Below the pieces are notes generated by a model. The model searched no databases. It saw only the letters and a list, made by a program, of their open reading frames with translations, and was not told the DNA's origin. Shown here piece by piece: positions 54,833-63,676 of a stretch of 64,000 nucleotides of DNA (the first letter of the stretch is position 1; each line of letters opens with the position of its first letter). The translations under genes and the position numbers were made by a program. The stretch is from Herbaspirillum frisingense GSF30. GTDB taxonomy: Bacteria; Pseudomonadota; Gammaproteobacteria; Burkholderiales; Burkholderiaceae_D. The stretch covers positions 1 through 64,000 of the forward strand of contig NZ_AEEC02000026.1 of the NCBI RefSeq assembly GCF_000300975.2. Direction: 5' to 3'.

Positions 54833-57800
54833 TTACCAGCGATAACGCCAGCCCGCCACCACGGCGTGCTGGGTCTGCAGGTCGTTCAGGCCCAGGTTGT
54901 AGTCAAGGAACAGGCTCGACGCCTGGCCCAGCTTGCCGGATAGGCCCGCTCCCAGCACCAGGCCGTCGCGCTTCTGTTGCAGGCCGGCGACCTGGAAGTT
55001 GACGCCCGGCGCGCCCTGGAAGGAGGCATTGAGGCTACCGCCGGCATCCAGCCATTGATGGCTCCAGAAGGCGCGCAGCTCGCTCTGCAGCTTGCCATCT
55101 TCGCGCAGGGGCAGGTGCCAGCGGGCACCTACCATCGACACCGCCGAGCGTGAAGTCTGTGCACTGGCATTGAGGCCGAGCGCACCGGCACCGGTTTCGG
55201 AGAAGGCATCCTGGCGCAGCAGCGTGCCTTGCAGCGAGACCAGCGGCTCGAACACGTAGCTGCCGCGATCGATGCGATAGCTGGCCTCGGCATGCAGGCC
55301 GAGTTCATCGCCGTTGTAGTCACCGGCCGCGCGCGAGACATCATTGCCGATCACGATGCTGCGCTGGGTAGCGTACTGGTTGCGGCCATAACCGACGATG
55401 CCCTTGAAGCGCCAGTCACCGCTCTGGTACTGCGCGTACACGGCGACCTGATGGCCTTCCACCTTGGCGCTGTCGCCGGCGGTGTTGTAGGCCAGGCGGG
55501 TATTGTCGTAGTGATAGGCCAGGCCCATGCTCCAGCGATCATCCAGCACCCGTTCCACCCCCATCAGCAGACCATTGCTGTTGCTGGTGTAGCCGGCGGC
55601 ATTGCCGTCGGAGCGGGTATTGCCATGGCCGCCCGCAACCTGCGCCCAGGCGCCGCCATCCTCGCGCACACGCAGGGGCCACAGACCGCTGCTGCCATTG
55701 CTGCTGTCGGTCATGGTGGCGGCGCTGTACTGGTAGTCATAGCGATCCGTCTCGGCGGAGGCCAGTTGCAGCTGGCTCATCGCAAAACCGCTGCCGCCGG
55801 AGAAGGCGGACCCGCCGCCGATGTTGCGGTTACCCAGGGTCTGCAGCGATTGGCCCATCAGGCCCAGCGTGGACAGGCCCTGATAGGCGCGCCCCCCCAG
55901 GCTCTCGAAGGCGCTGCGCGCCTGCGCCGCCGACAGGCCGTCGATCAGCGCCAGCTTGGCGCGCATGGCGCTGGACAGGCTTGCCAACTGGCCGGCCTGG
56001 GTCAGGGCATTGGCCACGCTGGCCTGGTTGCCGGTGGTGGTGACCGAGGCATAGCTGTTGCCATTGCGCGCCATCGTCAATTGCACCGCATTGCCGATGT
56101 AGCTGACCGTAGGCGAGACAAAGGCGAAGTCGCTGCGCACGGCATTGAAGCTGCCGCTCACGGTGCCGCTGGTCGACAGGATGGTATAGGGCGTGCTCAG
56201 CGCATAGGCGCCGCTGCCGGCGGCGATGGACAGGCTGCCGGCCAGGGCGGCATTGCCGTTGACCTGGATCAGGCCGCCGCTGCCGTCGGCGCTGGTGCTG
56301 ACCTGGGTGGTGGCGCCGTCCTGCAGGTTCAGATTGCCCTGGACCGTCAGCGTCGAAGTGCCGGCCGTGGCCAGCGTGCCACCGGCGGCCACCGTGGTGC
56401 TGCCCACCGTGCCGGTGCCGGAGAGGGTGCCGCCACTGTTGACGCGCACTGTGCCGCCCAGCACGCCATTGACGCTGAGCTTGCCGCCATTGACATTGGT
56501 GCTGCCGGCGAAGCTGGTCGAGTTGCCGCTGAAGACCGTTTCGCCGGCCAGCTGGTTGATCGTGCCGTTGCCCGAGATGGCCGCTGCCAGCGTGTAGTTG
56601 CTGCTGCCGCTGGCATTGTGGTTCAGGTTCAGCGTACCGTTGCCGGCGCCGAAAGCCAGCGATGTGGTGTCGAGCTGGCCGGGCGCGGCTGCCGTGCTGC
56701 CAGGCGCGGCACCGACGTTGAGGGTACCTGTGGAACCACTGCTGGTGGCGATGCGGATCACCGAGGCGGTAGCGCGCGCACCGTCGCTGATGGTCAGGGT
56801 GCCATTGCCACCGGCCCCGACATGCAAGGCATTGGTGGTGATCCAGGCCGAGTTGGCACCGGTCAGCGTCACGCTGCCGTTGCTGTTGGCATTGTTGGCG
56901 ATATAGCTGCGGTTGCCGGTGACCTGGCCGCCATCGGAGATGGTCAGCGTACCGTTGCCCAGACGACCGACGTTGACGTCCGAGCTGCTGCTCCAGGTGG
57001 AGCCGGCCCCGGTCACCGTCATGGTGCCGGAGGCGCCATTGAGGTCGCCCAGCAAGCCCTGCACATCGTTGATACGGCCACCGGCCGAGATGACTACGCT
57101 GCCCGTGGCGCCATTGTTGTGGCCGACAAAGAAGTCTCCCGAGTGGTTCCAGACCGAGCCGCTGCCAGTGACCAGGGCGCTGCTGTTGGACCCCGCTTCG
57201 GTTCCCACATAGCCATCGGTGCTGGTGACGTTGCCGCCTCCCGAGATGGTCAGGTTGCCATTGCCGACGTTGCCCACGTAGAGCACGCCGGTGTTGATCC
57301 ACTTGCTGCCGCTGCCGGACACGGTGACATTGCCGCTGCTGCCGGCCAGGTGGCCGACCAGGGCGCCGGTATCGGTGACTACGCCGCCATTGCTGATACT
57401 GAGGTTGCCGCTGGCGCCGTCGCCGTAGCCGATCGACAGGCGATCGCTGGCGGTGAAGTTGGCATTGTTGACCGTGAGCGTACCGCGCGCGCCAGTGATG
57501 TCACCCAGATGCACGACCGCGGCGGTGGCATTGGCACCACCGCTGACGGTGAGCCATCCGGTACCGCCAGTGGAACCGGAGCCGGCGTCACCGCCCACGG
57601 TGAGGTTGCCCGCCGCCAGCGAAGAACCGGCGCCGCTGACATTGACGCTGCTGTTGGAGGTGTCCTGGCGCCCGATCACCGTATTGGCGCTGCTGACATT
57701 GGCACCGTCGCTGATGGTGAGGTTGCCATTGTTGACCGTGCCCACGAAGAGCGAACCGGTATTGGTCCAGCGACTGCCGGCGCCGCTGATATTGACGGTG

Positions 57801-58603
57801 GACAGTGTGCTGCCGGCGGTACCGATCACGCCGGTGACGGAATCCACCGTGGAACCACCGGTAATGGAAAGGCTGGCGCTGCCGCCACTGCCGACTGTGA
57901 GCCGGTCGCCGATCAGCCATTGCGCCCCGTTGATCAGGCTGGCGCTGCCATTGCTGCCGCCGCCGCTACCCAGCACCACCGAGCCGCTCATGTTGACGAC
58001 ACCACCATTGACCTGCATCGTGCCGACCGCCCCGGTGTTGCCGATGACCAGGCCGTTGCCGATCAGGCTGCTGTCGGTATTGATCGTGAGGTTGCCTACG
58101 CCACCGCTGGCACCACCGACATAGGTGGTACCGCTGATGTTGGCGACCGCACCGGCGTCAAGCGTCAACGATCCGACGCCATTGAGGCCGACGGTCGCAT
58201 CGCTGCTGCTGTTGAGCCTGGCGCTGCCATTGGTGCCGCTGCCGGTGACGGTAATGGTGCCGTTGGAACCGTTGCTGTTGCCGATCAGGACCGACGAGGT
58301 GTTCAGCGTCGCCTGGTTGATCTGCAGGTTGCCCACCGTACTGCCGCCGACGGTCAGTGCCTGGATGGTGGTGTTGCTGGAAAGCACCGGATCGACGCCG
58401 GGATAGGCATTGATGACCGCAGCATCCGTGGACGTGGGTGCTGCCCCCGTCCATTGCCAGTTGCTGTCGTTGGTCCAGTTGTTGTCGACGTTGCCGGTCC
58501 ACGACGCCACCTGGGCGTGCGCGGCGCTGCCGATCAGCAGCAGTGTTGCCAGTGCACTGACTGGCAACGGTCTTGCATGAGCGAAGCTGCGCTTCGATTG
58601 CAT
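54833..58603 (-). CDS. Type V autotransporter with T5SS/PEP-CTERM-type repeats
   Basis: The 1256-aa protein has a signal peptide (MQSKRSFAHARPLPVSALATLLLIGSAAHAQ). A passenger of about 750 residues follows, built of imperfect repeats of about 45-60 residues with the theme GNGTLTISDGG-VT...GSNGSV-VTGAGS-W, as in the T5SS/PEP-CTERM-associated repeat family. Next comes a Gly/Thr-rich autotransporter-associated segment (SGNGTINQLAGETVFSGN...GTLSGTGTV) and a C-terminal 12-strand beta-barrel (about 985-1256) ending in aromatic WRYRW. The passenger should form a beta-helix on the cell surface, probably for adhesion or aggregation. A GGGGGG box precedes the ATG at 58603; the frame is open further upstream to 58771. 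Confidence 0.88.
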   Translation of the reverse strand: MQSKRSFAHARPLPVSALATLLLIGSAAHAQVASWTGNVDNNWTNDSNWQWTGAAPTSTDAAVINAYPGVDPVLSSNTTIQALTVGGSTVGNLQINQATLNTSSVLIGNSNGSNGTITVTGSGTNGSARLNSSSDATVGLNGVGSLTLDAGAVANISGTTYVGGASGGVGNLTINTDSSLIGNGLVIGNTGAVGTMQVNGGVVNMSGSVVLGSGGGSNGSASLINGAQWLIGDRLTVGSGGSASLSITGGSTVDSVTGVIGTAGSTLSTVNISGAGSRWTNTGSLFVGTVNNGNLTISDGANVSSANTVIGRQDTSNSSVNVSGAGSSLAAGNLTVGGDAGSGSTGGTGWLTVSGGANATAAVVHLGDITGARGTLTVNNANFTASDRLSIGYGDGASGNLSISNGGVVTDTGALVGHLAGSSGNVTVSGSGSKWINTGVLYVGNVGNGNLTISGGGNVTSTDGYVGTEAGSNSSALVTGSGSVWNHSGDFFVGHNNGATGSVVISAGGRINDVQGLLGDLNGASGTMTVTGAGSTWSSSSDVNVGRLGNGTLTISDGGQVTGNRSYIANNANSNGSVTLTGANSAWITTNALHVGAGGNGTLTISDGARATASVIRIATSSGSTGTLNVGAAPGSTAAAPGQLDTTSLAFGAGNGTLNLNHNASGSSNYTLAAAISGNGTINQLAGETVFSGNSTSFAGSTNVNGGKLSVNGVLGGTVRVNSGGTLSGTGTVGSTTVAAGGTLATAGTSTLTVQGNLNLQDGATTQVSTSADGSGGLIQVNGNAALAGSLSIAAGSGAYALSTPYTILSTSGTVSGSFNAVRSDFAFVSPTVSYIGNAVQLTMARNGNSYASVTTTGNQASVANALTQAGQLASLSSAMRAKLALIDGLSAAQARSAFESLGGRAYQGLSTLGLMGQSLQTLGNRNIGGGSAFSGGSGFAMSQLQLASAETDRYDYQYSAATMTDSSNGSSGLWPLRVREDGGAWAQVAGGHGNTRSDGNAAGYTSNSNGLLMGVERVLDDRWSMGLAYHYDNTRLAYNTAGDSAKVEGHQVAVYAQYQSGDWRFKGIVGYGRNQYATQRSIVIGNDVSRAAGDYNGDELGLHAEASYRIDRGSYVFEPLVSLQGTLLRQDAFSETGAGALGLNASAQTSRSAVSMVGARWHLPLREDGKLQSELRAFWSHQWLDAGGSLNASFQGAPGVNFQVAGLQQKRDGLVLGAGLSGKLGQASSLFLDYNLGLNDLQTQHAVVAGWRYRW

Positions 58604-58947
58604 GATTCCCCCCCTGGGTAGAGGCTGCCTGTTGCCGACATCTCTTAGCGGATGAGCTGGCGTTGCAGCCGATGCTTGTTGTTGATTGATCTTTACGGAA
58701 ACCCGCAAGGATTTTACAAGCATCAAAACGAATTTTTGGCAGGAGAGATGATTTTTTGTGATCTTGCGCACGGGGGAGGCATGATCATTCCCGTTGACCG
58801 GTACTTCGGTTTCACTTGGCGGGATTGCGGCGTGGCCGTACGCAGCTCTGGAACAGGCTTGGGCAGGGCAGGGAGCGGGCTTCAGGAGACGGCGCTGCCG
58901 TCCCCATCAACATCACGGGCGACGGCAGTGCCAGCCAGGTCATCGAG
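58604..58947 (-). other. Intergenic region upstream of the autotransporter
   Basis: These 344 bases are less GC-rich near 58680-58760 and should contain the autotransporter promoter on the leftward strand; I cannot pick a convincing -10/-35 pair. I see no gene and no clear terminator for the nemA-like gene. Confidence 0.3.
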
Positions 58948-60048
58948 TCAGGCAGCCTGGTAGGTCGGATAGTCGGTATAGCCTTCGGCGCCGCCACCGT
59001 AGAAGGTGTTGCGGTCGGCCTCCGCCCAGGGGGCGTCCAGACGCAGACGTTCCACCAGGTCGGGATTGGCGATGAAGGGGCGGCCGAAGGCCACCATGTC
59101 GGCATGCCCCGAGGCGACCGCATCCATCGCCATCTGGCGCTGGTAGCTGTTGTTGGCGATGTAAAGGCCACCGAAGGCGGCGTGCAGCTTCTTGAAATCG
59201 AATTCCGATGCTGCGTTGCTGCCCCGGGTCTGGCCTTCGACGCAGTGCAGATAGGCCAGGCCCAGCTTGCCCAGTTGCTCGGCGTAGTACAGGTAGGTAC
59301 GCTCGGGATCGCTGTCCAGCGGGATGTCACCGGCCGAGCGGGTCAGCGGCGACAGGCGCACGCCCACGCGATCGGCACCCCAGATATCGGCGACGGCGGT
59401 GACCACTTCCACCGGGAAACGCACGCGATTTTCCAGCGAGCCACCGTACTGGTCGGTGCGGTGATTGGTGCTGTCGCGCACGAACTGCTCCAGCAGATAG
59501 CCATTGGCCGAATGCACTTCCACCCCATCGAAGCCGGCTTCCTTGGCCAGCCGCGCAGCGTGGCGATAGTCCTCCAGCAGGCGCGGGATTTCGGCAGTCT
59601 CCAGAGCACGTGGCATGGAGGGCCTTGCCTGCGTCTGCGACTCCAGGAATACCAGCTCACCCGCCTGGATCGCCGAGGGGGCGACCGGCGCTGCGCCGTT
59701 TTCCTGCAATGAGCTATGCGAGACCCGGCCTACGTGCCAAAGCTGGTTGACGATCTTGCCACCTGCTGCGTGGACCGCATCGGTGATCTTGCGCCAGGCC
59801 GCGACGTGTTCCTCGGTGTAGAGACCTGGGGTGAAGGCATAGCCGCGGCCTTCGCGCGAAATATTGGTGGCTTCGCTGATGATGAGACCGGCCGAGGCGC
59901 GCTGGCGATAGTATTCGATGGCCAGTTCGCTGTGCACGCCCTGCATGTCAGCGCGTGAGCGCGTCAGCGGAGCCATGGCAATGCGGTTGGCGACGTCGAT
60001 GGCGCCGATGCGGGTGGGGGAAAACAGATCAGATCCGGTGTGCGACAT
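58948..60048 (-). CDS. nemA: Old yellow enzyme family ene-reductase (NemA-like)
   Basis: The 366-aa FMN protein is an alkene reductase with TIM-barrel fold: LFSPTRIGAIDVANRIAMAPLTRSRAD, LIISEATNISREGRGY, NQLWHVGRVSH, VHSANGYLLEQFVRDSTNHRTDQYGGSLENR and VAFGRPFIANPDLVERL. NemA relatives reduce N-ethylmaleimide, nitrate esters, chromate and other electrophiles with NADPH. AAGGAGT precedes the ATG at 60048. The divergent LysR gene is the expected regulator, although E. coli uses a TetR protein (NemR). The symbol is by similarity. Confidence 0.85.
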   Translation of the reverse strand: MSHTGSDLFSPTRIGAIDVANRIAMAPLTRSRADMQGVHSELAIEYYRQRASAGLIISEATNISREGRGYAFTPGLYTEEHVAAWRKITDAVHAAGGKIVNQLWHVGRVSHSSLQENGAAPVAPSAIQAGELVFLESQTQARPSMPRALETAEIPRLLEDYRHAARLAKEAGFDGVEVHSANGYLLEQFVRDSTNHRTDQYGGSLENRVRFPVEVVTAVADIWGADRVGVRLSPLTRSAGDIPLDSDPERTYLYYAEQLGKLGLAYLHCVEGQTRGSNAASEFDFKKLHAAFGGLYIANNSYQRQMAMDAVASGHADMVAFGRPFIANPDLVERLRLDAPWAEADRNTFYGGGAEGYTDYPTYQAA

Positions 60049-60155
60049 GATGTTGACTCCTTCTGGTGAGGTGGTGATGGTCGTCATCATCGGCAATGGG
60101 AAGAAATTCGGCCAATTTATTATTGATAAAACAGATTTATCGTAGACAATATATC

Positions 60156-60284
60156 TAGAACTCATTTCATAAATAGTCGTGAGATGCGTTCTGGTCAGAA
60201 AGGGCGCTGGCCGCGTTGCGCTCCTTGCACTTCATCCCAAAGGGGACTCGCTCGCACTCGCGCCTATTTATGAAATGAGTTCTA
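60156..60284. mobile_element. 129-bp MITE-like element with perfect 21-bp terminal inverted repeats
   Basis: The left end (60156-60176) and right end (60264-60284) are exact reverse complements over 21 bases, containing GAACTCATTTCATAAATAG. The 87-base interior is GC-rich and has no reading frame of note. If the outermost TA at each end is the target duplication, the element fits small non-autonomous elements mobilised by an IS630/Tc1 or IS5-like transposase; no such transposase is in the window. The right end stops one base before the ATG of the LysR gene, so the element fills most of the divergent promoter region. It could alternatively be a very large fold-back regulatory structure. Confidence 0.65.
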
Positions 60285-60285
60285 T

Positions 60286-61185
60286 ATGAAATACGACCTC
60301 AACCTGTTGCCGGTCTTCGTCGCCCTGATGGAGGAGCGCAGCGTCACGCGGGCCGCCTCGCGACTGGGCATGACGCAGGCAGCTTTGTCCAATGCGCTGG
60401 CCCGGCTGCGCCTGACCCTGCAGGATCCCCTGTTCATCCGCGAGCGCTACGGCATGCGCCCCACGCCCAAGGCTGAATTGCTTGCCCCCGCGCTGGTGGC
60501 GGCACTGGCGTCGATGGATGCGGTGGTATTGGGCCAGCAGGCCTTCGAACCGGGGCACGCCGATCACCTGATCACCATCGCACCCAACAGCTATGTCGAG
60601 TTTGTCCTGGTGCCGCAGCTGGTGGCCCGCCTGAGCGTGGTGGCGCCAGGTGTGCGCCTGCGCACCTTGCCTTTCGGCACCGACCTGGCCGAGACCGGCG
60701 TGAGTTCAGGCGATACCGCCATGGTGCTGGGACGCATCAATGACGCCCCGGATAACCTGGTGGTCCAGCACATCGGCGAGGATGGCCTGGCCTGCGTCGT
60801 ACGGGCCGACCATCCGCTCATCGGCACGCGCATCGGCAAGCGCCAGTATGAGCGCATGAAGCACGTCAACGTGCTGCCGCCCGGCCGTCTGCGCACCGGC
60901 CTGTTCCAGGCGCTGGAGCGCAGGGGCCTGCGACGCGAGGTCACCGTCTCGGTCACGCATTTCGCCTCCATCCCGGAGATCGTGGCCGCGACCGATTACT
61001 GTGCGACCCTGCCCATGCAGATCTGCAAGCGACTCGTCCACGATACCCGCTTGAAGGTACTGCCGGCGCCAGTCGATCTGGGTACTTTCCCGCTGCACAT
61101 GGCCTGGCACGTCCGTTATCGCGACGATCCGGCGCATATCTGGTTGCGCAAGCTGGTGGCAGAGGTGGCGCAGGCCCTGGGTTAA
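60286..61185 (+). CDS. LysR-family transcriptional regulator next to nemA-like gene
   Basis: The 299-aa protein starts MKYDLNLLPVFVALMEERSVTRAASRLGMTQAALSNALARLRLTLQDPLF, a standard LysR helix-turn-helix of the NodD/NahR-like group, followed by the substrate-binding domain. The ATG at 60286 is the expected family start, but its upstream region is the end of the inverted-repeat element, so the ribosome site is only the weak GAAATGAG within that repeat. It is divergent from the nemA-like gene and probably regulates it. The inducer is unknown; an aromatic or electrophilic compound is plausible. Confidence 0.85.
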   Translation: MKYDLNLLPVFVALMEERSVTRAASRLGMTQAALSNALARLRLTLQDPLFIRERYGMRPTPKAELLAPALVAALASMDAVVLGQQAFEPGHADHLITIAPNSYVEFVLVPQLVARLSVVAPGVRLRTLPFGTDLAETGVSSGDTAMVLGRINDAPDNLVVQHIGEDGLACVVRADHPLIGTRIGKRQYERMKHVNVLPPGRLRTGLFQALERRGLRREVTVSVTHFASIPEIVAATDYCATLPMQICKRLVHDTRLKVLPAPVDLGTFPLHMAWHVRYRDDPAHIWLRKLVAEVAQALG

Positions 61186-61291
61186 GTGCCGGTAATCGGT
61201 GGAAGTGACGGCGGGGCGTTTTCAGGGTGTAGACGAGGGGCGGGCGTCGGTGCGCGTAGCATTTCCGACTAACGCGGTGATGTCCTGCCGA

Positions 61292-61319
61292 TTGCCGATA
61301 GGGCGATCGCTTGTATCAT
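61292..61319 (+). promoter_or_regulatory. Possible promoter of the LysE-family gene
   Basis: TTGCCG (61292-61297) and TATCAT (61314-61319) are 16 bases apart, 56 bases before the ATG. Confidence 0.4.
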
Positions 61320-61374
61320 TGCGGCTCCTGCCTTCGCCGATGAAGGTTTTTCCGAACCCCCAACTGGTCACATC

Positions 61375-62007
61375 ATGCCTCTTGATACGCTCCTGCTGTT
61401 TGTACCGGCCTGCTTTGCATTGAACATGGCTTTCGGGCCGAACAATCTGCTGTCCATCACCATCGGCGCGCATTACGGCTTGCGGCTGGCAATTCTGGCT
61501 TCCGTCGGGCGCGTAGTCGCCTTTGCGATCATGATCGCCGTGGCCGCGCTGGGCATGGGAGCATTGCTCATGGCGTCGCAACTGGCCTTCACGGTCTGCA
61601 AGCTGCTGGGCGCCGCCTATCTGGTCTGGCTGGGTTTCAAGGTCTTCTTTTCCAGGGCGACGCTGTCCGTTGACGGTCTTGCGGGGGAGCAGGCGCGCGG
61701 CGATATCCGCACCTTCATCCGCAGGGAATTCCTGGTCGCCATCGGCAACCCCAAGGCGATCCTGGTCTTCACTGCCTTTTTCCCGCAGTTCGTGGTTCCC
61801 GGCAATTACTGGGTCAGTTTCCTCATCCTCGGCGGGATCTTCCTGAGCCTGGAAGTGGTCGCGATCGCGGCCTACGCCTATGCGGGCAGCCGGCTTTCCG
61901 GCGTGATCCAGAATGCCCAGGGGCTGCGCTGGATGAACCGCATCAGCGGCGGCACCATGATTCTGTTCGGCGCCATCCTTGCGCTGGCCAAGCGGCCTGC
62001 TGCATAG
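61375..62007 (+). CDS. LysE/RhtB-family amino-acid exporter
   Basis: The 210-aa inner-membrane protein has six hydrophobic helices and the family features FGPNNLLSITIGAHYGLRLAILASVGRVVAF near the start, LLGAAYLVWLGFKVFFSR in the middle and REFLVAIGNPKAILVFTAFFPQFV. LysE/RhtB proteins export lysine, homoserine, threonine or related compounds and are often induced by LysR regulators. Here the LysR gene upstream reads the same way but is 190 bases away and closer to nemA. The substrate cannot be read from sequence. The ribosome site is weak. Confidence 0.87.
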   Translation: MPLDTLLLFVPACFALNMAFGPNNLLSITIGAHYGLRLAILASVGRVVAFAIMIAVAALGMGALLMASQLAFTVCKLLGAAYLVWLGFKVFFSRATLSVDGLAGEQARGDIRTFIRREFLVAIGNPKAILVFTAFFPQFVVPGNYWVSFLILGGIFLSLEVVAIAAYAYAGSRLSGVIQNAQGLRWMNRISGGTMILFGAILALAKRPAA

Positions 62008-62057
62008 CGTCGTTGCAGCGTCAGGACGCTAGCGCGAGCATTCGTGTCAACAAGGTA

Positions 62058-63083
62058 TCAAGCAGTATCGGTAAAAGAGCGGGTAGCGCGGGCTGCATAT
62101 TTGTCTTCGATTCGTTGGCTCATGGCATAGCCAAAGGCCTGGCACGGGATTTCAATATAGCGGTAACCCAGATAGCCGAGCAGGACCATGAGTGGCAGGA
62201 AGAGGTAGCCTCCGCCATAGTCGGACATCAGGGCGATCAAAGGTGTATGGACCAGATACAGCGAGTACGAGATTTTTCCGACCCAGACCACCCATTGCGG
62301 ATAGAAGTCATTGTTTTTCAGCGAGATGATGACAAGCAGACTGCAGATGATAACGACCGAGGCATGGAAATGCGGTATTGGTATGGCCGAGTTGACGCCT
62401 AGGGCAATGACCAGCAGCGGCACCCATTTGGGTGAGATTTTCGGCAGGTGATCCCGATACTGGTAAATGAGACAGCCGGCTATCATGCCGTCGATGCGGA
62501 ACCACGCGTTGAGCATCAAAGGAGCTGATAGGGCCCACACCGCCACATACAGGACCACCAATACCAGTGCGATTCTGCGGCGGAACAGGAAGATACCCAG
62601 CAACATCACATAGAACCATTCTTCCAGGGACAGGCTCCAGTAATATCCGAACACCCCGCATTCGGATACCTTCACACACTTGAAATACAGGTAGAGATTT
62701 GCGTACTGGAAAAGCACAGCAATCGCGTGATGAATGTTGTTTCTTACCGAGCCTGTGTGAGTACCACCTCCCACAATGACTACTACGGTCAGCCAGAATG
62801 CCAGCCAAAAGAACGCAGGCCCCATCGTGCGGCACCAGCGACGGCTAAGGAATATGAATGCAATGGCCGAGCCAGTCTGCCGTTGGGTGATGCGATCCAG
62901 TGAGGCCGATACCAGATAACCGCTCAGCACGAAGAAAAGGTCAACTCCAAACCATCCCGAGAACCAGTGCAAATTGATGTATTGCGTCTGCTCCGTCCCC
63001 AGCGGAGAACTGGCCCAATGTGCCAGTATGACCAGCAGAATGGCGCATCCCCTGACCGCATCCAAATTCTTGTTATGTTCCAT
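62058..63083 (-). CDS. Acyltransferase family 3 membrane protein (OafA/YrhL type)
   Basis: The 341-aa protein has about ten membrane helices and the acyltransferase 3 pattern: NKNLDAVRGCAILLVILAHW with the catalytic His, WFGVDLFFVLSGYLVSASLDR, and SLSLEEWFYVMLLGIFLFRRR. Family members O-acetylate polysaccharides, LPS or peptidoglycan. Base composition is visibly lower in GC than the neighbours, with more ATA, AAT and TTT codons, which suggests transfer. A GTG 24 bases upstream (63107) is an alternative start. It is not next to other glycan genes; it may modify O-antigen. Confidence 0.82.
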   Translation of the reverse strand: MEHNKNLDAVRGCAILLVILAHWASSPLGTEQTQYINLHWFSGWFGVDLFFVLSGYLVSASLDRITQRQTGSAIAFIFLSRRWCRTMGPAFFWLAFWLTVVVIVGGGTHTGSVRNNIHHAIAVLFQYANLYLYFKCVKVSECGVFGYYWSLSLEEWFYVMLLGIFLFRRRIALVLVVLYVAVWALSAPLMLNAWFRIDGMIAGCLIYQYRDHLPKISPKWVPLLVIALGVNSAIPIPHFHASVVIICSLLVIISLKNNDFYPQWVVWVGKISYSLYLVHTPLIALMSDYGGGYLFLPLMVLLGYLGYRYIEIPCQAFGYAMSQRIEDKYAARATRSFTDTA

Positions 63084-63284
63084 TTTTACTTTCTTGGGTA
63101 ATGCCACCGATCCGAGAGCTAAGTGGGATTACGTTCTTCCGGTAGGAAATACCGGTTTGCATAGTGCGTCTGGCTTCCTGCCACGATCGGGTGACCTCGA
63201 CCTCATCTTTGCCCCCCACGCTGAGTGGCATCCATCACGCATTTCCCTCTTCGTCGCAGGATGGAACGGCAGTTGCCCCACATA

Positions 63285-63392
63285 TGGAAAAGGGTTCCAG
63301 GCACAGGCCAGGAACCCTTTTGAATCGGAGTCGGGACGAGCGTCGACTTACGGGAGTGCGGCACTCTTGCCAAAAATAAGCTGTTTAGTGGC
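63285..63392 (-). ncRNA. Candidate small RNA of about 105 nt
   Basis: Leftward from a predicted start near 63392 (TATAAT at 63404-63399), the transcript would fold into at least one internal stem (GAGTG/CACTC around 63355-63367) and end in the hairpin AAAAGGGTTCC/GGAACCCTTTT. The -35 is poor (TTTCAA at 17 bases). The hairpin could instead end the TetR mRNA, whose stop lies about 355 bases upstream on this strand. Confidence 0.3.
63288..63321. terminator. Bidirectional rho-independent terminator
   Basis: An 11-bp perfect stem AAAAGGGTTCC (63288-63298) and GGAACCCTTTT (63311-63321) encloses a 12-base loop. It is flanked by no close gene end: the TetR stop is about 355 bases away and the acyltransferase gene starts, not ends, 205 bases beyond. 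Confidence 0.75.
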
Positions 63393-63398
63393 AAAAAA

Positions 63399-63404
63399 AT
63401 TATA
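63399..63404 (-). promoter_or_regulatory. -10-like TATAAT, leftward
   Basis: A perfect TATAAT read leftward lies in an AT-rich patch upstream of the orphan terminator. It could drive the candidate sRNA or the acyltransferase gene through a partly terminated leader. Confidence 0.35.
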
Positions 63405-63676
63405 GCGTAAAGAAAGATTGATTGAAAGCAGCCAGCTCCGGGTGTGGTGCTGGCTCTCACTGGATCGGATTCCGATCATTTCGCCAGTGGAGTTGCGAGC
63501 CAGGTGGAGAAATCGATGCGATGCGTCGGTACGGGTTTGCCGATGGCCATGATGGTTCTGAGCTGATCCTGTTGTCGTCTCCGGTACAGCGCCTGCTGAT
63601 CAGCACAATTGCGTGCGCCCCTGCCCGACCGCTGGAGTTCGTTGCAGACTGGAAGAACCAGCGGCCAGCGCTCTCT

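Follow-up and report, generated by a model that had tools for sequence, protein, structure and literature searches.

Genes and features at the locus

The window, a stretch of 64,000 nucleotides from Herbaspirillum frisingense GSF30, contains a divergent gene pair, a NemA-like ene-reductase on the minus strand and a LysR-type regulator on the plus strand, with a 129-bp element directly before the start codon of the latter that is very probably a small non-autonomous transposable element (MITE). The features discussed below, with the evidence for each in brackets, are as follows.

58948-60048, minus strand: old-yellow-enzyme / NemA-like ene-reductase, divergent from the LysR gene (open reading frame, domain search)
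60106-60155, plus strand: block upstream of LysR in fixed register in the homologues (ATTT..GAAATTTATT..CAGATAT...CAATATAT), intact (homologue comparison)
60123-60150, plus strand: promoter-like site TTGATA-16-GACAAT (consensus match alone; 0.3-0.4 expected by chance)
60156-60284, plus strand: MITE copy with both flanking TA (target-site duplication), 129 bp, the element proper being 60158-60282 (repeat, genome copies, empty sites)
60156-60157, no strand: left TA of the target-site duplication, probable at this locus (empty sites of the C77 and C74 copies)
60158-60176, plus strand: left terminal inverted repeat GAACTCATTTCATAAATAG, the same end as that of an 859-bp IS5-family transposon (sequence comparison)
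60212-60228, no strand: inverted inner arm of hairpin A (CGCGTTGCGCTCCTTGC), fused at CCTTGC (60223-60228) to the 3' arm of hairpin B (comparison; 36 bp shorter than the 165-bp L037 form)
60264-60282, minus strand: right terminal inverted repeat (sequence comparison)
60283-60284, no strand: right TA of the target-site duplication, probable at this locus (empty sites of the C77 and C74 copies)
60286-61185, plus strand: LysR-type regulator, 299 aa, intact (open reading frame, domain search)

The left arm of the element (TAGAACTCATTTCATAAATAG, 60156-60176) has its exact 21-base reverse complement at 60264-60284, and a single base (T60285) separates the right arm from the LysR ATG at 60286. When 90% identity is accepted, a repeat finder lengthens the arms to 31 nt. 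Apart from the 21-bp repeat, no inverted repeat of 16 nt or more within 400 bases was found in the region searched (57000-63500), and at the composition of the window chance would give only about 2.4e-5 perfect 21-bp inverted repeats (spacer 3-400) per 64 kb. The strand folds at -61.6 kcal/mol (z-score -7.9), a value reached by none of 200 shuffles. The element is thus short (129 bp here, 272 bp in its full form), bounded by exact 21-bp arms and devoid of a gene of its own, as MITEs are.

Dispersed copies and empty sites

The same genome holds two 272-bp copies of the element (C77:39705-39976 and C74:68265-68536), to which the window copy is 95% identical over its left 56 bases and 97-98% identical over its right 62-66 bases, as well as a 37-base fragment on C89 (89% identical); with up to two mismatches allowed, the end motif forms only three pairs in this genome, namely those of the window, C77 and C74 copies. 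The 129-bp sequence is matched at E <= 0.001 in 29 of 34 Herbaspirillum genomes (this one counted), and the 272-bp copy, when used as the query against the GTDB family, finds matches in 83 of 392 genomes and 14 of 44 genera, where two candidates were scored per genome and part of the matches represent the core with other ends. Among plasmids, there was no match to the 272-bp element, nor to one element of the TIR2 class.

The flanks of the C77 copy are joined, with a single TA at the insertion point, in all 10 relatives that were aligned, and all five relatives aligned for the C74 copy show the same arrangement. At the window locus, the empty site is seen in Herbaspirillum sp. AP02 (G020), the sole match across the joint among the other 33 genomes of the genus; removal of the element and of one TA leaves the same length as in AP02 (11 nt vs. 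11). The AP02 joint reads TCTCCATG vs. TCTATATG in the window, that is, with CC at a position for which AT has to be assumed in the window lineage, and since AP02 has no TA at the target, the TA duplication at this particular locus is inferred from the equal length and from the other two sites. The original prediction had read a small non-autonomous transposable element from exact 21-bp inverted repeats, TA ends and an 87-base gene-free interior, all of which are borne out on the window sequence, and the search that it had suggested, of this genome and its relatives with the 129 bp, indeed returned copies at unrelated sites, a TA target-site duplication at the two full-length sites (C77 and C74) and empty sites with a single TA there. 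Hence, we consider the 129 bases to be a genuine MITE of a Herbaspirillum genome, of the identity, origin and position given here, with a probability of about 0.88; as a single insertion, it is an ordinary one.

The LysR gene and its upstream region

LysR homologues of alpha-, beta- and gammaproteobacteria have in common a block that extends from -53 to the ATG in fixed register and includes a -10-like CAATAT at -12 to -7, each position of which is kept in 66-84% of loci (79 loci in the profile, L122 left out). The counterpart of this block in the window (60106-60155) is probably the regulator-binding site together with the promoter. The promoter-like TTGATA-16-GACAAT within it, a weak match, is the sole such site in 59990-60400, lies left of the MITE and is the same in AP02, where its second hexamer ends 9 nt before the ATG. 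No GGAG, GAGG or AGGA occurs near the ATG in 79 of 80 homologous LysR loci, AP02 included. Since there is no Shine-Dalgarno sequence and the conserved block closes with a -10-like box shortly ahead of the ATG, at a distance of about 7 nt, the LysR gene is probably leaderless. The same 50-base block, found from alpha- to gammaproteobacteria (loci L044-L123), marks the subfamily as a candidate conserved leaderless regulator gene. Many of these homologues are divergent from frames that resemble old-yellow-enzyme, aldo/keto-reductase or DJ-1/PfpI-like genes, according to a by-eye reading of the neighbours in which some loci gave no clear neighbour.

These comparisons modify the original prediction with respect to the promoter. 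The proposed loss of a native ribosome site is wrong, given the lack of a Shine-Dalgarno sequence in nearly all homologous loci, and the proposed replacement of part of the LysR promoter is not supported by the empty site, which is equal in length so that nothing has visibly been removed, or by the position of the promoter-like site to the left of the MITE. As for the view that the element occupies a promoter region shared by the two genes, a conserved block does exist between them, but it lies left of the MITE and is intact. That the regulation of the LysR/ene-reductase pair has been rewired is nonetheless plausible.

Two other readings of the element bear on this junction. A native regulatory fold-back of the nemA-lysR junction would account for a repeat that stands exactly at the regulator start and folds strongly; however, AP02 lacks the repeat, none of the 80 homologous loci has it within 70 nt ahead of the start, and the MITE is present at unrelated sites in this and other genomes. 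Given the empty site and the dispersed copies, we reject the fold-back, to which we attach next to no probability. A better case, albeit still an unlikely one, can be made for a MITE from which transcription starts or is driven outward, so that LysR expression is raised or rewired in the way described for some Correia elements: outward promoters have been reported in MITEs (PMC10969869), and the LysR coding sequence is conserved. Against this, no sigma-70-like site was found within the MITE, although a consensus scan is weak evidence. We retain the reading as a MITE inserted between the probable promoter, left intact, and the LysR start.

A partner transposon of the IS5 family

Pairs of the same ends that are 855 bases apart in G012 and G033 bracket an 859-bp insertion sequence (IS) with two overlapping frames, which encode DUF4096 (PF13340) and DDE_Tnp_1 (PF01609). 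Both halves of its transposase score above the cut-off of the NCBIfam model for the IS5 family (NF033580), and the IS shows the IS4/5-type N-terminal domain, the DDE domain, the two overlapping frames and the length of 0.8-0.9 kb of that family. Its terminal repeats are those of the MITE, which accordingly carries the ends of an autonomous transposon. Thus, the 859-bp Herbaspirillum IS (G012:C3:1019937-1020795, with copies in G033) resembles the MITE in its terminal repeats and TA-type ends and differs from it in carrying the two-frame DUF4096/DDE transposase, only the ends being common to both; such an element is what we take to be a 'type II' MITE. The MITE target is TA. The IS427 subgroup of IS5 is characterized by a TA target together with a subgroup-specific transposase clade, and the 859-bp IS may or may not be one of its members.

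At E <= 1e-30, the 859-bp IS occurs in 3 of the 34 genomes of the genus, of which G033 holds 12 copies, G012 a single copy and G010 a shortened one; none was found in the genome of the window at either E <= 1e-30 or E <= 0.001, and this is a 93-contig assembly in which an unassembled IS is possible. Most of these genomes thus have the MITE but not its transposon, with the qualification that draft assemblies may miss IS copies. Current mobility of the window MITE is doubtful because the transposase was not found in its own genome. The 12 copies in G033 (e.g., L155:508-1366) are 99-100% identical in the DDE half, and this genome contains 82 end motifs in all; it is likely a site of recent IS activity.

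In other genera, the same ends flank relatives of the IS that measure 856-867 bp by script boundaries (L229, L230, L239, L242 and L246), with transposases 68-81% identical; 15 of 392 genomes matched at E <= 1e-25. Among plasmids, the IS gave only partial matches, in 8 records of Deinococcus and Leptospira, none of which covered more than 47% of its length. We also considered a derivation of the GAACTC-ended IS from a GGGTCTGTTAAC-ended IS and dropped it, the relatives in other genera being without that motif beside the end.

The window copy as an internal-deletion form

The full 272-bp element consists of a terminal stem of more than 20 bp, a hairpin A, a tiny CCC/GGG hairpin and a hairpin B, and in an alignment of 17 copies from four genera (A3), 45 of 108 predicted pairs show a change on both sides that keeps the pairing. 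Compared with a 165-bp copy in G019 (L037), in which hairpin A is itself inverted and hairpin B truncated, the window copy shows one 36-base gap between CCTTGC repeats; the joint is identical in L009, a 128-bp copy elsewhere in G019. Hairpin A is accordingly inverted in the window copy, and most of A and B has been lost by deletion at the CCTTGC repeats, which leaves one long hairpin. A 125-bp copy (L010, G012:C5:208915-209039) represents another sort of rearranged short form, the outer parts of both sides making up one long palindrome of the left half.

A folded core with different ends across Burkholderiales

The folded core is also found with ends other than those described above. Among 18 loci picked from matches to hairpin A only, 17 proved to be elements of 266-282 bp that combine this core with the ends TAGGGCCTGTTAACA...TGTTAACAGGCCCTA or variants thereof, the remaining locus (L216) having no clear right end. 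A search with the hairpin A core over 399 genomes of the order, in which two candidates were scored per genome, matched 28 genomes and 20 of 158 genera (30 loci). Of these loci, 25 were scanned for ends, the other five being GAACTC-ended copies or partial views of them: nine belong to the GGGYCTGTTAACA class, one to AGAGTGCCTAACATAATG, two to GGAACCTCTGATTAAGTC and one to GGGAGACTCTGATG, two lay so close to a contig end that the script could not be applied (by eye, L258 among them is of the GGGCCTGTTAACA class), and 10 gave only short or unrelated hairpins. The AGAGTGCCTAACATAATG, GGAACCTCTGATTAAGTC and GGGAGACTCTGATG kinds are singly weak matches (E 5e-8 to 2e-4 per genome) with one or two loci each. 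These rare-ended elements are nearly of one size (266-273 bp), apart from L265, which is longer (399 bp), and L257, L267 and L271 share the fold. One genome (G060) carries both main end kinds.

We aligned 28 elements of five end kinds (A4; 11, 14, 1, 1 and 1 elements), in which the GCAAGGCG, CAAC and ACCC..GG motifs are kept in all or nearly all rows. Pairing was found in 96.0% of cells (69.9% when shuffled, 36-39% when slid), 73 of 85 pairs are changed on both sides and the covariation score is 0.684 vs. 0.189, where it should be kept in mind that the structure was derived from A4 itself and that related rows inflate such pair counts. G.U pairs account for 76 of 2278 standard cells; that is, the changes are two-sided, as in DNA palindromes.

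The second class of ends also has an insertion sequence. An 818-bp IS5-type element on a viral contig (L279:3347-4164) has the GGGCCTGTTAACA ends of the second ~270-bp class and an IS5-type transposase, the DDE part of which, compared over 116 residues with its counterpart in the GAACTC-ended IS, is 26% identical; a search of five genomes for an IS with TIR2 gave no end pair at IS spacing. Viral contigs contain three further GGGCCTGTTAACA-ended elements of 267-271 bp (L281:11134-11404, L283:935-1204 and L286:365-631), all of which keep the three-branched fold, L283 and L286 being strongly diverged in sequence.

The simplest reading of these elements is a common core whose ends have changed; an independent assembly of similar folds is less likely, though it may apply to the rarest end kinds. 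Under this reading, the window MITE would be what remains of a three-branched mobile hairpin of ~270 bp, belonging to a Burkholderiales superfamily in which the core is inherited while the terminal repeats are exchanged among different IS5-family transposons, a proposal to which we give even odds. In the superfamily core, a central ACCC-nnn-GGG hairpin and a bulged base at the foot accompany two hairpins whose internal loops, around GCAAGGCG / GCAACGC, are conserved. Since the pairs change on both sides almost without wobble intermediates, we propose that the core may be kept either by selection or by arm-to-arm copying of DNA; the latter could also carry a newly acquired end to the other end of the element, which would swap its transposase partner.

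It is further possible, though we think it rather less probable than the superfamily itself, that the folded core is a functional structured module (DNA or RNA), carried as cargo by several transposon ends, as opposed to a transposon remnant. The five kinds of ends go together with the same core motifs, bulges and overall length, and most pairs of A4 are changed on both sides; however, the rarity of wobble pairs fits arm-to-arm copying of DNA palindromes as well as selection, the window copy is without most of the core, and Rfam gave no match up to E 1 for L001, L002 and L144. We favor an inherited core with exchanged ends, with selection and arm-to-arm copying both as candidate forces behind its conservation. 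MITEs are usually viewed as passive remnants of one transposon; if the superfamily is real, a core of constant fold and size that passes from one kind of ends to another would make MITEs modular parasites with a lineage of their own. The folded core with exchangeable ends is the part worth following, and the forces that conserve it could be tested directly in this system.

MITEs of IS5-family insertion sequences are a known class. The window family agrees with them in being short and gene-free, with the terminal inverted repeats of an IS, a TA duplication, dispersed copies and a strong fold, and is unlike them in its 272-bp, three-branched and strictly paired fold and in the presence of the same core with other ends. 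Correia elements of Neisseria have a terminal sequence and a core other than those of the window MITE, from which they also differ in length, a separation made by description. Correia elements are folded and often lie beside promoters, and RNase III is reported to cut their transcripts in the terminal repeats (PMC10969869), in which respects the window MITE may be likened to them. In the titles and abstract openings of the literature on MITEs and repeats of Herbaspirillum, Oxalobacteraceae, Burkholderiales and Polaromonas, we found no account of this family; the Polaromonas JS666 genome paper, subscription journals or ISfinder may have one.

Predicted effect of the insertion on LysR expression

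The MITE stands between the -10-like box and the LysR ATG, with the conserved block intact up to 60155, and would thus add a strong hairpin leader to the LysR transcript. According to our model, an IS5-family transposase not found now in this genome would have moved the MITE in trans into a TA, so that it came to lie downstream of the -10-like box and ahead of the ATG in a gene that is probably leaderless. Transcription from the old promoter would now begin near the left end of the MITE, giving a leader of about 129 nt whose stem, more than 20 bp long, would reach to within two bases of the AUG. Opening the region from -18 to +13 around the AUG is predicted to cost 17.5 kcal/mol in this leader mRNA (a start at 60157 being assumed), vs. 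0.2 kcal/mol for the initial 14 nt of the AP02 mRNA, taken as leaderless, and a weak GAG within the MITE (60277-60279) might serve as a poor Shine-Dalgarno sequence. LysR translation would consequently be lowered or made dependent on cutting of the stem by RNase III, which, speculatively, would restore a short leader in the manner reported for Correia terminal repeats (PMC10969869). The ene-reductase would keep its operator, and the pair would become less responsive or fixed at one level. We see the chances as evenly balanced for the expression part of this model taken alone, that is, for LysR production that is lowered or RNase III-dependent.

The regulator itself appears to have been maintained. 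Relative to AP02, dN/dS is 0.055 for LysR and 0.056 for the ene-reductase, values that indicate strong purifying selection on a LysR gene functional now or until recently, and since the LysR frame is intact and conserved relative to AP02, the insertion should be recent or tolerated. The locus offers a natural test of how a long perfect hairpin acts when placed between the -10 box and the start codon of a regulator gene that is probably leaderless, in a pair that, to judge from the neighbouring enzymes, may serve in electrophile or carbonyl stress. Beyond the ene-reductase, the minus strand of the window carries a long repeat-bearing frame (54833-58771), the C-terminal part of which looks autotransporter-like by eye in the list of open reading frames.
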